The notes beneath the pieces were generated by a model. It made no database searches, had not been told where the DNA came from, and saw nothing but the letters and a program-made list of their open reading frames with translations. 33,766 nt of DNA from Candidatus Saccharimonadota bacterium. GTDB taxonomy: Bacteria > Patescibacteriota > Saccharimonadia > Saccharimonadales > UBA10212. The position numbers and the translations under genes were made by a program. Positions 8,857-16,955 of the stretch are shown one piece after another (the stretch's first letter is position 1; the number at the start of each line of letters is the position of its first letter). Location: positions 1 through 33,766 of the forward strand of contig JAICWR010000006.1 in assembly GCA_025934715.1 (NCBI GenBank), read 5' to 3'.

Positions 8857-8944
8857 AGCCTTGAGGATAAGGCTAGCGGAAAGGAGTGGCACGCGAGACC
8901 CCGCCTCGGTTTTGGCCACTTGATTGCCAAGATTGAGGCGGGGT
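8857..8944 (-). other. Structured trailer downstream of tRNA-Arg
   Basis: 10-bp stem ACCCCGCCTC (8898-8907)/GAGGCGGGGT (8935-8944) with inner TTGGC/GCCAA; second hairpin AGCCTT (8857-8862)/AAGGCT (8869-8874). Confidence 0.6.
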
Positions 8945-8961
8945 TGAAGTTAGCTAGGACG

Positions 8962-9036
8962 TGGTGCCCCCGAGAGGATTCGAACCTCTAGCTTCTCCTT
9001 AGGACGGAGTTATTTTATCCATTGAACTACAGGGGC
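8962..9036 (-). tRNA. tRNA-Arg (CCT)
   Basis: Minus strand GCCCCTG...; anticodon loop GTCCTAA, T-arm GAGGTTCGAATCCTC, encoded CCA. Confidence 0.9.
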
Positions 9037-9066
9037 CCGTTTAAATATTACCTTAATTAATCTTGA

Positions 9067-9621
9067 TCAGGCGCGCAGTTCGTCTGGGGCGAACCAGAGG
9101 TTGATTTCAAACTCGGCTTCGGTTTTATCACCCGAAGCGTGTACCAGGTTCATAATCGGCCGCTTTTCTTTGTTGGCCAGAGTGGGAGTGTCGTTAGAAT
9201 AATCGCCGCGGATAGTGCCCGGGTAGGCTTTGGCCGGCACGGTGTGGCCGACTAGTTCCCTAACTTTTTTTATAGCATCCTGGCCCTCTAAGACAATAGC
9301 CATGACCGGGCCAGAAGTTATGAAATTGACCATCCACCCCTGTATTTTCAACCCCATTTCATGCGGGTCGTCGGTGCCGAGCTCGGCTTTGGCGTCCAAG
9401 CCGGCTTCGGCATAAGTTTCCAGGCTTTTTTGGCCCATGCCTTCTATGAACTCGCGCCTTTCAGTTGGATAGTGCTTATTGGCCAGATTTTCCGAAGGCG
9501 TGACCATCTTGGCAGCCAGCATCTTTAGCCCGGCTTTTTCAAACCGGCTGATAATCTCTCCAACTAGCCCGCGCTGGACGGCGTCGGGCTTGAGCAGTAC
9601 TAAGGTTTTCTCCATTTTCAT
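9067..9621 (-). CDS. ndk: Nucleoside diphosphate kinase
   Basis: 184 aa; MEKTLVLLKPDAVQRGLVGEIISRFEKAGLK, MNLVHASGDKTEAEFEINLWF. Confidence 0.93.
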   Translation of the reverse strand: MKMEKTLVLLKPDAVQRGLVGEIISRFEKAGLKMLAAKMVTPSENLANKHYPTERREFIEGMGQKSLETYAEAGLDAKAELGTDDPHEMGLKIQGWMVNFITSGPVMAIVLEGQDAIKKVRELVGHTVPAKAYPGTIRGDYSNDTPTLANKEKRPIMNLVHASGDKTEAEFEINLWFAPDELRA

Positions 9622-9625
9622 CCGC

Positions 9626-9883
9626 CTAAACTTTTTTAAGTGTATTAGATAACATTTTATTAATGTGGTTTCTGCCCCATCCTGTTTTAAGCCACTTCTC
9701 TCTCAGATACGCATCATACTTATTGGTGAAGGCTTCATAAAATATTAAGTCATATGGACCAGAATCACTAGTCCATTTCACTCTGCGAGAATTATGTTCC
9801 TTAAGCCGTTTTTGCAAATTATTGGTGCATCCAGTATAAAACTTGCCGTCAAGTCTGCTTTTCAATATATAGACATAATACAT
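9626..9883 (-). CDS. GIY-YIG nuclease-domain protein
   Basis: MYYVYILKSRLDGKFYTGCTNNLQKRLKEH; track ORF extends to 9934 but the domain begins at this internal ATG. Confidence 0.85.
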   Translation of the reverse strand: MYYVYILKSRLDGKFYTGCTNNLQKRLKEHNSRRVKWTSDSGPYDLIFYEAFTNKYDAYLREKWLKTGWGRNHINKMLSNTLKKV

Positions 9884-9942
9884 AAAAAAGTTTGGCGGAC
9901 TAAGTATAACAGATGAGAATCTGAGCAACAACACTGCTCAAG

Positions 9943-9970
9943 TAGGCATTAGGGAGTAGGCAACAGGCAT
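9943..9970 (+). repeat. Heptamer array, left end of element A
   Basis: Four contiguous 7-mers, consensus YAGGCAN. Confidence 0.85.
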
Positions 9971-10272
9971 TAGTTTTTGAGCTTACTTATTAACGCGTAG
10001 AGCATTTTCTGAACCTCGCTGAGCAATTCCTCCGCTCTACGTGTTTCTATATGCGGGTACTCTTGCTTAATAATTACCACTTGCGTATCAAGTTCGGCTG
10101 CCGAGCCAAAGGCCATGGATAAGAATCGTATGTAGTCGCCTGTACTTCTTCTGGCGTAGCCCTCTGAAATATTTGAAGGGATGGAAACAGCAGATCTTTG
10201 AGCCTGACTTACAAGCCCGAACTGTTCACTTTTAGGAAGCTTTTTGGACAAGGCATAGGTTTCGCTAACCAA
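9970..10272 (-). CDS. Four-helix-bundle protein (S23/23S rRNA-intervening-sequence-protein-like)
   Basis: YKDLEVWKRSIALVSETYALSKKLP...RSAVSIPSNISEGYARRSTGDYIRFLSMAFGSAAELDTQ; frame stays open upstream of the TTG at 10272 and encodes YKDLEVWKRSIAL without a canonical start. Confidence 0.8.
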   Translation of the reverse strand: MVSETYALSKKLPKSEQFGLVSQAQRSAVSIPSNISEGYARRSTGDYIRFLSMAFGSAAELDTQVVIIKQEYPHIETRRAEELLSEVQKMLYALISKLKN

Positions 10273-10325
10273 AGCAATGCTACGTTTCCATACTTCTAAA
10301 TCCTTATACGAACGCGGCTTAACTA

Positions 10326-10353
10326 TTGCCTATATCCTATTGCCTATTCCCTA
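10326..10353 (+). repeat. Heptamer array, right end of element A, inverted relative to the left
   Basis: TTGCCTA TATCCTA TTGCCTA TTCCCTA. Confidence 0.85.
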
Positions 10354-10372
10354 AAAAGAAAATTGCTAGAGC

Positions 10373-10402
10373 TTGATATTGTACGACGCCTGCCATTACA
10401 CT
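10373..10402 (+). promoter_or_regulatory. Sigma70-like promoter for xerC/D, possibly leaderless
   Basis: TTGATA-18-TACACT, 7 nt before ATG at 10410. Confidence 0.5.
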
Positions 10403-10403
10403 A

Positions 10404-11324
10404 GTGCTTATGGATTATGAAGAAGCCGTCGGCCAATTCCTGGAATATTTGGAGCTGGAGCAAAACCGCTCCTTGAAGACCATCCAAAATTACAGCCATT
10501 ACCTGACCCGTTTAAGCGATTACGCCGGCGAGATAAAACTCAAAGATATCGACGCCGAACTGGTCCGCAAATGGCGGATGTGGCTCAACCGCCTGCCCAC
10601 GGCCACCAGCGACGAACTTAGCAAAATCACCCAAAATTACCACTTAATCGCCCTGCGGTCTTTTTTGCGCTTCTGCGCCAAGCGCGATTGGGAAACTATG
10701 CAGCCCGATAAAATCGAGCTGGCCAAGACCAGCCGGCCACAAGTGACTTTTTTGGCGCCGGATGAGCTGGAGCGGCTTACGTCACAACCGGACACCTCCA
10801 AGCAAAACGGCCTGCGCGACCGGGCTATATTGGAGTTGCTTTTTTCCAGTGGGCTGCGCGTCAGCGAACTGGTCGGGCTGGACCGCGACCACATCAACCT
10901 AAAACGGCGTGAATTCACCGTCCGCGGCAAGAGCCAAAAGGACCGGCCGGTGTTCATAAGCGATGAAGCCGCCGCCTGGATTGAACAATACCTGGCCAAG
11001 CGCGCCGATAACACCAAGCCGTTATTCATCCGCTACAGCGGCAGTAAAAAGGTCGATAACAGTGGTAATTTCACCCGCTTAACCGCCCGCAGCGTGCAGC
11101 GGATGGTCGCCCGTTACGCCAAAATGGCCGGCATAACCAAACATGTGTCGCCCCATACTTTGCGCCACAGTTTTGCCACAGACTTGCTGATGAACGGCGC
11201 CGATTTACGCAGCGTGCAGGCCATGCTGGGCCATTCCAACATCGCCACCACCCAAATTTACACCCACGTCACCGACCCGCACCTAAAAGAAATCCACTCC
11301 AAATTCCACGCTAAGAAACAATAG
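10404..11324 (+). CDS. XerC/XerD-family tyrosine recombinase
   Basis: 306 aa; N-terminal SAM-like domain, LLFSSGLRVSELVGL, HTLRHSFATDLLMNGADLRSVQAMLGHSNIATTQIYTHV; ATG at 10410 is a likelier start than GTG at 10404. Confidence 0.93.
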   Translation: MLMDYEEAVGQFLEYLELEQNRSLKTIQNYSHYLTRLSDYAGEIKLKDIDAELVRKWRMWLNRLPTATSDELSKITQNYHLIALRSFLRFCAKRDWETMQPDKIELAKTSRPQVTFLAPDELERLTSQPDTSKQNGLRDRAILELLFSSGLRVSELVGLDRDHINLKRREFTVRGKSQKDRPVFISDEAAAWIEQYLAKRADNTKPLFIRYSGSKKVDNSGNFTRLTARSVQRMVARYAKMAGITKHVSPHTLRHSFATDLLMNGADLRSVQAMLGHSNIATTQIYTHVTDPHLKEIHSKFHAKKQ

Positions 11325-11326
11325 CG

Positions 11327-12559
11327 TTAGTGCGGACCAAAACCGCTAGGTATTCCTGTGGTGGTGGTGCCGCCAGTACTTGGGATCGAATCACACACTC
11401 CGTTTTGATCAATGTTAGCGCTTATGTTCGAATCAGAAGTGGATGGGCCGTAAGTCCCGGGGCTGGTCACGCTGACATCAAAGCCTTTGCAAATGCTTTC
11501 CATCGATTGAACACCGTAGAGAGGTGTCTGGAAATTATTGCCGATGTCAATTCGGGCCCTTATCCGCTGGAGCACATCAGTCCCCTGGCCGGTGACGTCG
11601 ACAATCGCCTGGGCATTAGGAATCTGGGTCAAGCTTTGTCCGCCGTTAGTCGCCGCTTGTACAGTCACGTCAATTGGGTTATAACGGGCTGTAATTCTGA
11701 CGTAAAAATTGGTTGGGCTTAAATTGATGCCAGAAATGAAGCTGTTACACATCTGTGGGTTTGCGCTGGACCCACCGACCTTAAAAGTATTCCCAATCTT
11801 ACAGTTACCTGGCACAAAGCCGCCCTTGCCGATACTACCGCTACCGCAGTTACTGCCGCTATAACTAACACAGCCAGGAGTGCCAGAGCCGCCATTAGGG
11901 TACATATAATAAGTGCGAGATAGACTGCTAAGCGTCGCGTTCGTATCACTTGAACCTGGAAAGCCATTCGGAATTGGGTAAAGGTTAACTTCTAATAATC
12001 CTCCGGTTTGGGAAGTAATGCTGGACTCTTGCGGCAGGCTACCTAGAGACCCGAGTGGTGTAAAGCTCGAGGGTGTCTGGTCATTTTGCCAACTAAAATA
12101 CATACGGCCCATGTTTGGCTTGGATATTTGGAACGTCACCGATTGGTCCTTGCCAAGCTGGTAAACAAGGTTGTCGGGCTGGGTGTCTATGGTCACACAC
12201 GAATACTTGGCGATGCCGCTGCTTCCTGACAGGTCTGAAGTGAAATACTGGCCAAGGCTCGGCGGGCTGTTGCATTTGTCAAAACCGGTCCCGCCGGCGC
12301 CCAGGTACGCCCTGGCGTCGTCCAGCCCGGCCAAAGCCGAATAAAAGGCCTGGGCTGACAGCTCCCGGTCCAATGATTGGCGCAGTTCCCTATCCATCAG
12401 CTTAGAAAAGCCGACCGCGACCAAACCCAGCACGACAGCCAGGATCGCCACCACGATTAAAGATACCAACCCCGACTGGTCCGTTTTTGGCTTTTTGGTC
12501 TTCCTTAGCATAAACATATTTAACATCGCCTTAAATCGTTTGTAAAACCGTCCGGTCAA
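11327..12559 (-). CDS. PilX-like pilus assembly protein
   Basis: 410 aa; GLVSLIVVAILAVVLGLVAVGFSKLMDRELRQSLDRELSAQAFYSALAGLDDARAYL. Confidence 0.7.
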   Translation of the reverse strand: MTGRFYKRFKAMLNMFMLRKTKKPKTDQSGLVSLIVVAILAVVLGLVAVGFSKLMDRELRQSLDRELSAQAFYSALAGLDDARAYLGAGGTGFDKCNSPPSLGQYFTSDLSGSSGIAKYSCVTIDTQPDNLVYQLGKDQSVTFQISKPNMGRMYFSWQNDQTPSSFTPLGSLGSLPQESSITSQTGGLLEVNLYPIPNGFPGSSDTNATLSSLSRTYYMYPNGGSGTPGCVSYSGSNCGSGSIGKGGFVPGNCKIGNTFKVGGSSANPQMCNSFISGINLSPTNFYVRITARYNPIDVTVQAATNGGQSLTQIPNAQAIVDVTGQGTDVLQRIRARIDIGNNFQTPLYGVQSMESICKGFDVSVTSPGTYGPSTSDSNISANIDQNGVCDSIPSTGGTTTTGIPSGFGPH

Positions 12560-13223
12560 AATCAGCGGTGACGCAGAACTGGGAGCTGGTTAGCGCGCCG
12601 GTGCACTGGGCGTCGGGCGCCTGCCAGGGATTACTCCCAAAACCACCGGTGCCGCTGAAAAACAGGCCGTTAGGGCTGCCGCCGTAAAAAACCACGTACA
12701 GCCTTACCAGGCATACCGTCCCGTTGCCGTTTTGGCAGTCAACTTTTATGTGGTTAAGTTGCATACCGTTGCTTAGGAGCTGCTGGGCCGAGCTTGGTGT
12801 CACGCCTTGTTGAGTCAGCGTCTTACAGCCGGCGGGCATATCTTCGCGGTATACACCCTGAAGGCCGGCGCCTGCCGTGACTTGGGTACCCAAAACATAG
12901 GCATAACGATGGTCGCCGACACAAAAACTGTCCTGGTGGGACGAACCGGTGTTGCCATATGTATCATCTATAAGTTCAGGGTGGTTGGAGCCGAACTGTA
13001 TATCGTCTTGTATATCTTGCACTATGGTCCGGGTGGCGTTTTGGGTGTTAGCCATGTTCACACCTTTATAATAAATGCGGCTAATCTGTACAAATGAGGC
13101 CAAAACCACCACCAGCACCACCGAAAAGACCGCCGAAGCGATTAAAAGCTCAATAATAGTGAAGCCGGAATGTTTTGTCCCGCGCTGGGGTTTTCTTAAC
13201 GGTGTGATTATCGGCGAAGTCAT
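12531..13223 (-). CDS. Minor pilin with prepilin-type N-terminus (PilW-like)
   Basis: 230 aa; KHSGFTIIELLIASAVFSVVLVVVLASF. Confidence 0.85.
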   Translation of the reverse strand: MTSPIITPLRKPQRGTKHSGFTIIELLIASAVFSVVLVVVLASFVQISRIYYKGVNMANTQNATRTIVQDIQDDIQFGSNHPELIDDTYGNTGSSHQDSFCVGDHRYAYVLGTQVTAGAGLQGVYREDMPAGCKTLTQQGVTPSSAQQLLSNGMQLNHIKVDCQNGNGTVCLVRLYVVFYGGSPNGLFFSGTGGFGSNPWQAPDAQCTGALTSSQFCVTADFDRTVLQTI

Positions 13224-13231
13224 TTTTATCC

Positions 13232-14185
13232 CTAGCAGGGCGGTATATTATTGGCTTTTACTTCACTGCCGGATGGCTTTTGAATCGGACTTGGCGGCGA
13301 CGTCCAGGTGGAGCCATCTGTTAACGTGACTGTCAGGACAACTGTAAATGTCTTTACGCAAGGTGGAGGGATAAATGGATCAGGGGGTACGGAATTTGAG
13401 TATGGCAAATAGACAAAGAGGTGGGAAATTGGATCTTGGTTCTGGCAGGCCGTGTTTGTCGTTTTTGTCCCGTCACCCCAGTTCCAGGTGCAACCGGCTA
13501 CTTCACTCGGCGGGTTTGTAGAGGTGTTAGTAAAACTGCCTCTATAGCTGTAAGTAAGCGGGCCGGGAGATGGTGCTCCATTATCAATATTAAAACCAGC
13601 ATTGCCGTTTAGCGCCAAGCTGTTATTTGGCAAGCCAAGGGTTGCCGAGGGGTCGTAATTGAGCTTATAAAATAGGCTGGCTTTGTTGGTGCCGCCACCT
13701 AGCCTGGCCCAGCGCACCGTGATGGTATAAAGAGTTGGATTGGTGGTAGAGTCTGTTCCGCCACTGGTGGTGATATTAGCTAAATAAACAGCCCCTTCGC
13801 CCGTCCTCTGCTGTTGGCAGCCGGTACTATATGCAGAAGCAGTAGTTCCGTTGCTATTAGTGATCGCCTGGTTTTGGTTAAACCAGCCAGTGGCAGTGGA
13901 TACTTTGGCGCTATCGCTAAGGCAGAAGTTGCTTTTGCCCGCAAAATTAGACGTGAAGTCAGTGTCTTTTTGAAACCGCAGCCTTAAATCAGCTACCTGG
14001 TTTTCTAGTATATTGAGGGCCTCGTTATGCTCGCGGGCGGATATAGCTTGGTCGAGGCTGCGCTCAGCTGTAGCGTAACTGATGCCGACGGCAAAGGCGG
14101 CGATAGCGATGGCGATCAAAACTTCGACGATCGTGTCGCCTTGTTGTTTTAGCTTTGCGCTGGTTTTTTTTACGCGGAGTTCCAT
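13232..14185 (-). CDS. Minor pilin-like protein with PKD-like C-terminal domain
   Basis: 317 aa; GDTIVEVLIAIAIAAFAVGIS pilin helix; CTWNWGDGTKT...HLFVYLP...KTFTVVLTVTLTDGSTW resembles PKD. Confidence 0.75.
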   Translation of the reverse strand: MELRVKKTSAKLKQQGDTIVEVLIAIAIAAFAVGISYATAERSLDQAISAREHNEALNILENQVADLRLRFQKDTDFTSNFAGKSNFCLSDSAKVSTATGWFNQNQAITNSNGTTASAYSTGCQQQRTGEGAVYLANITTSGGTDSTTNPTLYTITVRWARLGGGTNKASLFYKLNYDPSATLGLPNNSLALNGNAGFNIDNGAPSPGPLTYSYRGSFTNTSTNPPSEVAGCTWNWGDGTKTTNTACQNQDPISHLFVYLPYSNSVPPDPFIPPPCVKTFTVVLTVTLTDGSTWTSPPSPIQKPSGSEVKANNIPPC

Positions 14186-14209
14186 AGCCTCTAGCTTTTC
14201 ACTTATACT

Positions 14210-15034
14210 TTAGCAGTTTACATACTGTAAGTTAACACTTGCGCCCAGGCCCAGGCTGCTATCGATAGTTATCTGGGCGAAGCTCTTACCATCCGTTAGG
14301 CAGATTTTCATCTGTTTAAGTTTAGTCGGGAGGCAGCTGCCGGTCATCTCCACACAGGGGACCACAGCATTGCCGGATTGGTCGGCGGCAAACGGCGGGG
14401 AGCCGTTAAAGTTATCGTACTGGTAGGCGTTCACGTCGCTCTCACCGTTAGACGCTGTTGAGCCCTCGGTGTTGATACTGGTGAAAAAACCGGCCAGATG
14501 GCTGGCGGTGTAGGATGAGCCAACCCCAGAACTCGTGACACTTTTCACATAAAGCGGCAGCAAGCTGAATGACTGGGTCAAATCAACGCCCGCCTGACCG
14601 ACGGCCGGCTCTGGATTGGAAGCCTGCAGAGTGGTGGGAAGGATACCGTTGTTATCACGCACCCCAAAAACCGGATAGGCATAGATTGTGCTCCCCTGGG
14701 TGTTATCCGGCGGAAACTGGAAGACTTTACCCAGGAACACGCAAGCCGGCGTATAACCGGGCCCAGGCAAGTTTGGTTGCAATACAGGACGCTGAACGCC
14801 GCTTATAAGCTGTGTTGAACAGCTATCCTTGTTAGGGTCGGCGCCAGTGAAGCCGGCTGAAACCTCGTTAATCCAAGCCTGGAGCTGCGACTGGGTGTCC
14901 CTTACACTTTGGTTAAAATCGGTTTGGGTTTGCCGGTTATCTATCAATTTAAAGGCCGAGACCATTATCAAGGCGGAAACCGCCAAAAAAATCATAACCT
15001 CTATAATGGTGTATCCAGCCGACACACGCCGCAT
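14210..15034 (-). CDS. Minor pilin with prepilin-type N-terminus
   Basis: MRRVSAGYTIIEVMIFLAVSALIMVSAFKLI; ATG at 15034 preferred over TTG at 15064 (TATACT 7 nt upstream). Confidence 0.8.
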   Translation of the reverse strand: MRRVSAGYTIIEVMIFLAVSALIMVSAFKLIDNRQTQTDFNQSVRDTQSQLQAWINEVSAGFTGADPNKDSCSTQLISGVQRPVLQPNLPGPGYTPACVFLGKVFQFPPDNTQGSTIYAYPVFGVRDNNGILPTTLQASNPEPAVGQAGVDLTQSFSLLPLYVKSVTSSGVGSSYTASHLAGFFTSINTEGSTASNGESDVNAYQYDNFNGSPPFAADQSGNAVVPCVEMTGSCLPTKLKQMKICLTDGKSFAQITIDSSLGLGASVNLQYVNC

Positions 15035-15082
15035 AGCCAACAGTATAGCATAAGGGGAAACCAAGGGGTCAAAACGCTAGCA

Positions 15083-15142
15083 ATTTACCGTTGACAGTTT
15101 ACCGTTTACAATGCGTTTACTATGAACCGTGAACCGTTTACT
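15083..15142 (+). repeat. Heptamer array, left end of element B
   Basis: ATTTACC GTTGACA GTTTACC GTTTACA (ATGC) GTTTACT ATGAACC GTGAACC GTTTACT. Confidence 0.88.
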
Positions 15143-15499
15143 ATGGGCAACCGGACCATTAGCTTTAGCGCCAATATTATTAACTTCTGTAAAAATGAAA
15201 AAATGACTCCAATAACTAAGCCTTTGATTGAACACTTAGTAAGGTCGGCTACATCTATCGGGGCCAACTATGCAGAAGCCAACAATGCGGCTTCAAAAGC
15301 TGATTTTCGAAGTAAAATTTATATTGCAAAGAAAGAAGCCGCTGAAACCAAGTACTGGCTAGCCCTGATGCTTAATTTAGCGGCGGATAGGAAGACATGC
15401 ACAGAGCTTCTGAATGAGAGCCATTATCTGTTAATGACCTTCCAAAAGATTATTAGTACCTTGAAGAATGGTAAACAGAAAGCAGTTAACGCAAGGTAA
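15122..15499 (+). CDS. Four-helix-bundle protein (S23/IVP-like)
   Basis: 125 aa; LVRSATSIGANYAEANNAASKADFRSKIYIAKKEAAETKYWLALM; N-terminus MNREPFTMGN and C-terminus NGKQKAVNAR are translated from repeat units. Confidence 0.85.
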   Translation: MNREPFTMGNRTISFSANIINFCKNEKMTPITKPLIEHLVRSATSIGANYAEANNAASKADFRSKIYIAKKEAAETKYWLALMLNLAADRKTCTELLNESHYLLMTFQKIISTLKNGKQKAVNAR

Positions 15500-15522
15500 A
15501 CAGTGAATGGTAAACTGTAAAC
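15470..15522 (+). repeat. Heptamer array, right end of element B, inverted relative to the left
   Basis: GGTAAAC AGAAAGC AGTTAAC (GCAA) GGTAAAC AGTGAAT GGTAAAC TGTAAAC. Confidence 0.88.
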
Positions 15523-15526
15523 GTTT

Positions 15527-16384
15527 TTAGAGGCCGAATAGGTTTTTATACCAAGTTATTAGGCTGTCGCCAAAGACTACGAAAATGCCGGTGGCGGCTA
15601 TTAAAAACGGGCCGTAGGGTGTTTTGCTGGCCATGGTCTTTTTGTTAGTTATAAGATGCGGCAGCACAAAAAGCGTCCCAAGCAGCGAGGAAACAAATAT
15701 CATCCCTAAGCTTTTATAGGGGTCGGACAGCAGGGTCCCGGTGACCAAACCAAGCCGGACGTCGCCAAAACCTATCCACTTGCCCTGCGAAAATGTATAC
15801 AAGATATAGAAAATGCCGCTGGCAATGGCCACGGATAAGGCCCATAGCCAGACCGCATGGCCGGGGCGCCCCTGGAATACGCCTATATAAACCGCGCGTC
15901 CGGCGGCCGCCACCGCTAAGGTGGGATAAATGATTTTATTCGGCAATATCATCCAGCGGATGTCATATACAGCCAATCCCATAAGGCCCACAGACGCCGT
16001 CAGCCAGGTGGCCAGCAGCAGCCACTGGCCGTTAAAGTGCGGCGCTGCTGGCCAAAATATGTAGCTTAGCGCGAAAATAAAGCCCATGGCCAGTTCTACA
16101 GCTGGATATTGCTTAGAAATCGTCTTGCCGCAGTGACGGCAGTGGCCTTTTAGCAAAATCCAGCTTATGACCGGCACTAAATCCAGGGCGGACAGCTGGT
16201 GGCGGCAGTTGGGGCACATGCTACGGCCTTTTAGTATGGAAAGGTCGCCATGATTTAGATTTCTTTTGCCTGTTGCCTGTTGCCTTTTGCCTATTCCCTG
16301 TTCATGCAGGCGCCAAACAAGGGCGTTAACAAAGCTGCCCAGCCCAAGGCCCAGAATGAATAGGATGATAGAAATTAGAAGCAT
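15527..16384 (-). CDS. pilD: Prepilin peptidase (A24 family)
   Basis: 285 aa; GLGLGSFVNALVWRLHEQ, two CxxC zinc motifs (CPNC, CRHC), YDIRWMILPNKIIYPTL, GFGDVRLGLVTG. Confidence 0.92.
   Translation of the reverse strand: MLLISIILFILGLGLGSFVNALVWRLHEQGIGKRQQATGKRNLNHGDLSILKGRSMCPNCRHQLSALDLVPVISWILLKGHCRHCGKTISKQYPAVELAMGFIFALSYIFWPAAPHFNGQWLLLATWLTASVGLMGLAVYDIRWMILPNKIIYPTLAVAAAGRAVYIGVFQGRPGHAVWLWALSVAIASGIFYILYTFSQGKWIGFGDVRLGLVTGTLLSDPYKSLGMIFVSSLLGTLFVLPHLITNKKTMASKTPYGPFLIAATGIFVVFGDSLITWYKNLFGL
16266..16300 (+). repeat. TTGCCTR heptamer array inside the pilD coding sequence
   Basis: TTGCCTG TTGCCTG TTGCCTT TTGCCTA TTCCCTG; encodes QGIGKRQQATGKR on the minus strand. Confidence 0.9.
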
Positions 16385-16402
16385 TAGGATAATCGTAGCA
16401 TA

Positions 16403-16434
16403 AAAAAAGCGGCCTTTTCAGGCCGCTTTTTGTT
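16403..16434 (-). terminator. Rho-independent terminator/attenuator between pilin gene and pilD
   Basis: Minus strand AAAAGCGGCCT-GAAA-AGGCCGCTTTTTTT. Confidence 0.85.
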
Positions 16435-16448
16435 TTAAACTTATGACC

Positions 16449-16955
16449 TTAACTTGATAGGCATTGCTTAACGTTAGCTCCACCGCTCTCGACTACAAAA
16501 TACACAGCGACAGAACGAGTGTTGGCTGTAAACGGTGGTACGTTTGCCCCGTTACAATCGAAGCCAACATCAACTGCAATGGCATTTAAGCCCGGAGTTG
16601 CTGGGGTTGCCGCAGAAACACTCGAGCAAGTTGTTGATGGTTGAACCGATACACTATTGGCTTGTGCGTTTGCAGCGGTATTACTGATAGTAGCGGATCC
16701 ATTTGCGACACCACATCCACCGGAGGTTGCCGGCAACTGACCGTTATTGTTTGATTCAAATGTCTGCACAGCCGACAGTATATCCGCGGCATCGTGTTTA
16801 ATGGCGTTGTTACGTGAGTTGCGGTTCAAAGCCGGTACGGCCAAGAACACAATTAGAAAGATTAAAGCGGCGATGGCCAACACGATTAGAACTTCGATTA
16901 TCGTGAATCCCTGTTCCCGCTTTTGTTTATATACGTTTTTCATGGTTTTAAGCAA
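16449..16955 (-). CDS. pilA: Type IV pilin (major-pilin candidate)
   Basis: 168 aa; EQGFTIIEVLIVLAIAALIFLIVFLAVPALNRNSRNNAIKHDAADILSAVQTFESNNNGQLP. Confidence 0.85.
   Translation of the reverse strand: MLKTMKNVYKQKREQGFTIIEVLIVLAIAALIFLIVFLAVPALNRNSRNNAIKHDAADILSAVQTFESNNNGQLPATSGGCGVANGSATISNTAANAQANSVSVQPSTTCSSVSAATPATPGLNAIAVDVGFDCNGANVPPFTANTRSVAVYFVVESGGANVKQCLSS

Follow-up and report, generated by a model that had tools for sequence, protein, structure and literature searches.

Cyanobacteria carry heptamer repeats of the STRR type. Tandem intergenic heptamers have also been described as GGGAATC in Xanthomonas and as GGGGA(C/T)T in Nostoc, with 70 close inverted pairs in Xcc and 75 in Xac; in the available part of that study they are treated as G-quadruplex repeats, and its main text names no XCC0516 or XCC05xx gene (PMC4692102). 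Heptamers are also part of the IVS in the 23S rRNA gene of Coxiella burnetii, which contains an S23 ORF and terminal inverted repeats, bears heptamers (GACAGAT) beside the start codon in a copy number that varies between strains, and is cut from the transcript by RNase III; the available part of that paper does not present the inverted repeats and heptamers as a general mobile design (PMC4990558). In CPR bacteria, ORFs of the S23 family PF05635 lie within rRNA insertions (PMC11270868), and PF05635 is described as resembling the Avd protein of diversity-generating retroelements (PMC10053308). REPIN-RAYT systems combine short, dispersed, non-autonomous palindromic doublets with one or few partner genes per genome, encoding a tyrosine transposase (PMC3116915), and MITEs are short multi-copy sequences that have inverted ends and encode no enzyme themselves. 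Within the open-licence literature, we found no paper linking S23 genes outside rRNA to heptamer arrays.

Here we analysed a stretch of 33,766 nucleotides (the window), contig JAICWR010000006.1 (C25) of a Candidatus Saccharimonadota genome of 0.71 Mb that is 94.85% complete (GCA_025934715.1, hereafter G000). Two S23 genes of the window are framed by inverted heptamer arrays and are called elements A and B. The relevant features are the following:

9626..9934, minus strand: small GIY-YIG gene, inserted separately and outside the element; its true start is probably near 9883 (profile match, spacer alignment)
~9884..9942, no strand: remainder of the ancestral ndk-xerD spacer, with the GIY-YIG insertion on one side and element A on the other (AACAGAT leader, TGCTCAA; alignment by eye against relatives)
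9943..9973, plus strand: 3' array of the S23 gene, TAGGCAA type, overlapping the stop codon (sequence, TRF)
9970..10329, minus strand: S23/IVP gene (PF05635, TIGR02436), frame open from 10329, stop codon at 9970-9972 (profile matches, ORF reading)
10323..10353, minus strand: 5' array of the S23 gene, in opposite orientation to the 3' array (sequence, TRF)
10354..10403, no strand: ancestral spacer, xerD side (TTGATATTGTACGACGC, shared with relatives; alignment by eye)
about 15080..15523, plus strand: element B, S23 gene 15122-15499 framed by inverted TTTACCG/GGTAAAC arrays (ORF list, profile match, array scan)
16263..16302, minus strand: solo heptamer A array, in frame within the prepilin peptidase gene pilD, 15527-16384 (TRF, heptamer search)

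Element A is what the initial annotation had described, an S23/IVP-like gene between inverted 7-mer arrays whose minus-strand stop codon overlaps the end of one array. The left array reads TAGGCAT TAGGGAG TAGGCAA CAGGCAT TAG on the plus strand (9943-9973), and the right one (10323-10353), once reverse-complemented, is TAGGGAA TAGGCAA TAGGATA TAGGCAA TAG; TRF recovered both at period 7. The gene, one of three PF05635 genes in the source genome, belongs to PF05635 (E 5e-26, 91.3 bits for a cut-off of 33.8) and matches TIGR02436 (E 2e-28, 98.8 bits for a cut-off of 24). As its frame is open up to 10329, it is longer than the TTG-initiated ORF at 9970-10272. No ATG, GTG or TTG lies ahead of the domain, a lack found in 2 of the 81 array-bearing S23 genes considered below; the gene may thus use a rare start codon or be at an early stage of decay. 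The other nearby unit of this architecture, which has a different heptamer (TTTACCG), proved real as element B, whose protein is 20% identical to that of element A.

Element A resembles the Coxiella IVS in its S23 ORF of ~120 codons, its total of ~0.4 kb, its terminal inverted repeats and its tandem heptamers. Unlike that IVS, it sits in an intergenic spacer, between ndk and xerD and outside a 23S rRNA gene (the sole Rfam match over 8900-16500 of the window is a tRNA), has another heptamer, and has gene-less relatives elsewhere in the genome. Like REPINs, these relatives are dispersed, short and non-autonomous, several of them are palindromes, and they occur in a genome with few partner genes; however, the S23 partner is a four-helix protein and not a tyrosine transposase, the arms are tandem heptamers, co-resident heptamers differ, and G000 has no match to Y1_Tnp, the domain of the RAYT partner. 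As in MITEs, the dispersed copies of heptamers A and B have inverted ends and no transposase gene, whereas their tandem-heptamer ends differ by family and one form carries a conserved gene that is not a known transposase. The reverse transcriptase that accompanies Avd in diversity-generating retroelements has no counterpart in G000 (0 RVT_1 matches). Xcc offers a parallel, with gene-less inverted heptamer pairs and the S23 protein Xcc0516 (PDB 2gsc) in one genome. A connection with the rRNA was found in Azospirillum lipoferum plasmid AZO_p2, in which a full LSU rRNA match contains an S23 element bounded by heptamer arrays, the insert replacing a helix loop that is short in relatives. Therefore, the classical rRNA IVS appears to be one special case of the array-framed S23 design.

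We then considered how general this design is. S23 genes came from PF05635 matches in 99 genomes (37 positive), from a search with the protein, which gave 80 named loci biased to its relatives, and from plasmid loci. After removal of duplicate loci, identical proteins, domains shorter than 60 aa and loci collected for other purposes, 165 S23 domains were kept, 95 of which had arrays at both sides. The matched-array test covered 160 loci, 5 with short flanks being removed. Results showed matched inverted arrays at 80 of the 160 loci, in many phyla, compared with none of 800 dinucleotide-shuffled controls and 5 of 744 placements of the same geometry elsewhere in the same loci; the other half of the S23 loci had no matched arrays. 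A stricter first scan had found arrays upstream of 61, downstream of 73 and on both sides of 50 of 122 genes, against 52 of 886 control windows. Array similarity to the own partner was 0.88 in inverted orientation, compared with 0.56 in direct orientation and 0.62 between elements, and the heptamers varied widely (TAGGCAA, TAGTGAT, GCAGATT, AGGTTAC, GGGAACA and others). Thus the suggestion that period 7, the inverted orientation and the S23 partner stay constant while the heptamer varies holds across S23 loci. Arrays were also rarer near other genes, one of the two comparisons by which the annotation would have its proposal judged: besides the 5 of 744 placements, inverted heptamer arrays framed 0 of 20 GIY-YIG loci and 2 of 20 Y1-transposase loci. 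The latter two (L226 and L228) carry array-bounded Y1 (RAYT-like) transposase genes, with an S23 gene ~1 kb away in L226. S23 genes were found in 35 records of the plasmid collection and gave no match among 50,697 phage records. In Anabaena and Pseudanabaena plasmids, S23 genes sit between cas6 and cas4 of type I-D CRISPR loci (L150; H82).

Array positions with respect to the gene were analysed, like strand polarity and the Mantel correlation below, only in the 81 S23 genes with matched arrays. The upstream array ended at a median of 7 nt from the start codon, the downstream array overlapped the stop codon in 51 of 81 genes, and the gene strand had more G than C in 71 of 81 cases (27 of 33 clusters). 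All this would fit arrays that are expression signals of S23, the upstream one as a purine-rich region for ribosome binding and the downstream one as a stem. We regard this explanation as very unlikely, considering that it is weakened by the dispersed gene-less copies, that empty sites lack the arrays too, and that solo arrays lie inside pilD. An exact RNA stem was also rejected as the constraint on the arrays: unit-order complementarity of the two arms was weak, above zero in 54 of 81 genes and at p<=0.05 in 7 of 81.

The annotation had further proposed that protein and repeat co-diversify, each protein clade pairing with its own heptamer. Protein identity correlated with heptamer similarity (Mantel rho 0.35, reached by 0 of 2000 permutations), also across phyla (rho 0.27, 0 of 2000 permutations). 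Pairs more than 70% identical had a common heptamer in 40 of 40 cases (similarity >0.85), but at 45-55% identity only ~5% of pairs did, so that a clade owns no stable heptamer. None of 17 co-resident S23 pairs had a common heptamer, as chance would lead one to expect at those identities. Since heptamers turn over faster than the protein, descent alone could explain the correlation. The data are therefore compatible with co-diversification, without proving it in the strict sense.

To place element A in its own lineage, we looked at the ndk-xerD spacer of relatives. In 16 of 16 relatives ndk and xerD are adjacent, with neither S23 nor GIY-YIG between them, and element A is thus a lineage-specific insertion; the spacer alignment, made by eye, does not resolve a target-site duplication. 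The same alignment answers the question raised about the small GIY-YIG gene outside the left array. As ancestral sequence (~9884-9942) separates this gene from the array, there were two insertions, and involvement of GIY-YIG is not borne out. As to whether GIY-YIG genes recur beside S23, only 3 of 81 S23 genes had one within 1.5 kb, against 0.75 expected, counting small genes among the matches listed and leaving out UvrC-length frames. With a separate insertion and no array-bounded locus either, GIY-YIG was rejected as partner. At the genome level, S23 was present in 24 of 38 genomes with a small GIY-YIG gene among the matches listed (p 4e-5, 99 genomes). Two further observations concern this spacer. 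In a relative of another genus (G008, L138), a gene-less palindromic heptamer hairpin with a different heptamer occupies the ndk-xerD position of element A. Several relatives (L130-L138) have an operator-like palindromic box ahead of xerD/ndk (GAACATATTTTTTGTTC in L136), which lies at 9920-9942 in the window.

Occupied and empty sites were then compared on plasmids. A cyanobacterial plasmid conjugation operon contains S23 in Trichormus and Scytonema and is empty in Nostoc linckia and Aulosira; GTAAT flanks the insert on both sides in the occupied sites (L153 and L160) and is present once in the empty ones (L158 and L159), although this pentamer may belong to the end of the element itself. At the same site, another plasmid (L161) keeps an eroded S23 remnant. 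In a second operon (L167 compared with L165), a gene-less array pair had been inserted with GTCA at both sides. A clean duplication at an S23 insert was seen at one site and not at four other compared sites; the TraM, RNR, integrase and ABC-transporter plasmid sites and the Azospirillum 23S site did not give clean target duplications. The cas6-cas4 plasmid site was discarded as an occupied/empty pair because the relative holds a different insert there. Comparison of near-identical cyanobacterial plasmids over two stretches of 50 kb revealed no heptamer indel. As a separate observation, two loci with common flanks (L156 and L157) appear to carry the S23 gene in opposite orientations, as if it had been inverted between repeats, and an ISL3-like transposase lies beside L156. 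Taken with the site of element A, these comparisons show that related elements insert as discrete units, and the mobile nature of the S23 heptamer element is well supported.

Both heptamers of the window were also found without a gene. Outside C25, heptamer A is present on C22 and C24, as a palindrome on each, and at the end of C9; in 98 siblings it had no match at 0 or 1 mismatch and 3 matches at 2 mismatches. Heptamer B (GTTTACC) gave 13 hits including element B, with gene-less sites on C9, C13, C16, C19 and C32, several of them palindromes of roughly 100 bp, and 0 hits for the reversed control. Element B, next to pilD, is absent from that position in 16 of 16 relatives. The pilD loops of two relatives (G006 and G008; loci L269 and L271) contain heptamer-like in-frame runs, read by eye, each with its own heptamer; it looks as if the variable loop of prepilin peptidase in three genomes were a landing site for heptamer runs.

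A survey of siblings in 20-kb stretches, chosen before reading, identified 17 gene-less inverted pairs in 797 kb from 25 S23-positive genomes (6 with a pair) and 0 in 800 kb from 30 S23-negative ones (Fisher p 0.006 by genome). By batch, pairs occurred in 3 of 5 against 0 of 10 genomes and then in 3 of 20 against 0 of 20; the comparison of single-stretch genomes (3 of 20 S23-positive, 0 of 20 S23-negative) is not significant alone. Five of the 17 pairs matched the heptamer of a resident S23 element (p 0.003), and the remaining ones had no significant match. Heptamer palindromes are therefore confined to S23-bearing genomes among the sampled siblings.

Which enzyme could move these elements? 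Arrays could be ordinary MITE/REP-like repeats moved by an unrelated transposase, RAYT-type Y1 or other, with S23 as a passenger. Y1_Tnp indeed goes with S23 (22 of 33 Y1-positive genomes among 99, Fisher p 4.7e-5), two Y1 genes are array-bounded, and the short target duplications look transposase-made. However, the source genome has no match to Y1_Tnp, rve or RVT_1; gene-less pairs were seen in 0 of 7 S23-negative, Y1-positive genomes (240 kb) and in 2 of 6 S23-positive, Y1-negative ones; and arrays are far commoner around S23 than around other genes. A passenger would also have to be reconciled with purifying selection: where computable, dN/dS of S23 pairs was mostly 0.03-0.2 (0.86 in the nearest plasmid pair, with almost no changes), indicating that the protein is maintained in the relatives tested. 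We consider the passenger explanation unlikely. Y1/RAYT was accordingly rejected as the mover, its association with S23 at the genome level leaving the gene-less pairs unaccounted for, and rve integrases were rejected as they are not associated with S23 (8 of 15 rve genomes, p 0.25). The co-occurrence of S23 with both Y1 transposase and small GIY-YIG genes may in part reflect general mobile-element load.

RNA-based spread was also weighed, in which the elements would be non-autonomous retroelements and an Avd-like S23 would use a reverse transcriptase in trans. The likeness of PF05635 to Avd fits this, and the gene-strand polarity of the arrays suggests action on a transcript, but G000 lacks RVT_1 and genomes with a reverse transcriptase are not associated with S23 (9 of 18, p 0.28). 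Reverse transcriptase in trans was rejected on these grounds, and we hold this route to be very doubtful indeed.

We favour the reading that these are mobile S23 (IVS-type) elements, and that they probably make up a selfish system of two parts similar to REPINs, with the S23 protein acting on the heptamer hairpin of its own element. A small four-helix-bundle protein gene framed by inverted heptamer arrays would move as a unit. S23, whose solved relatives 2gsc (Xcc0516) and 2rld have five chains each in the PDB, would bind the heptamers of its own array where these form a hairpin in DNA or RNA; that S23 plays such a role is likely. By analogy with RAYT and REPINs, S23 may aid the spread or persistence of the element and of its gene-less derivatives, the cutting and joining enzyme presumably being supplied in trans. 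The classical 23S IVS would then be such an element inserted in an rRNA helix, at a place where RNase III can remove it. More tentatively, S23 might be a sequence-specific partner of heptamer hairpins, each protein with its own heptamer and co-resident elements orthogonal; the pair might then be a new minimal mobile system, from which the rRNA IVSs and the heptamer repeats of Nostoc and Xanthomonas also originate.

If true, this would unite S23-encoding rRNA IVSs, the uncharacterised S23/four-helix family, the dispersed cyanobacterial and xanthomonad heptamer repeats, and the inverted heptamer hairpins of small bacterial genomes. The function of S23 would become testable, as binding of the heptamer that frames its own gene, and if the pairs are orthogonal, they would offer a naturally occurring collection of modules that recognise short repeats.
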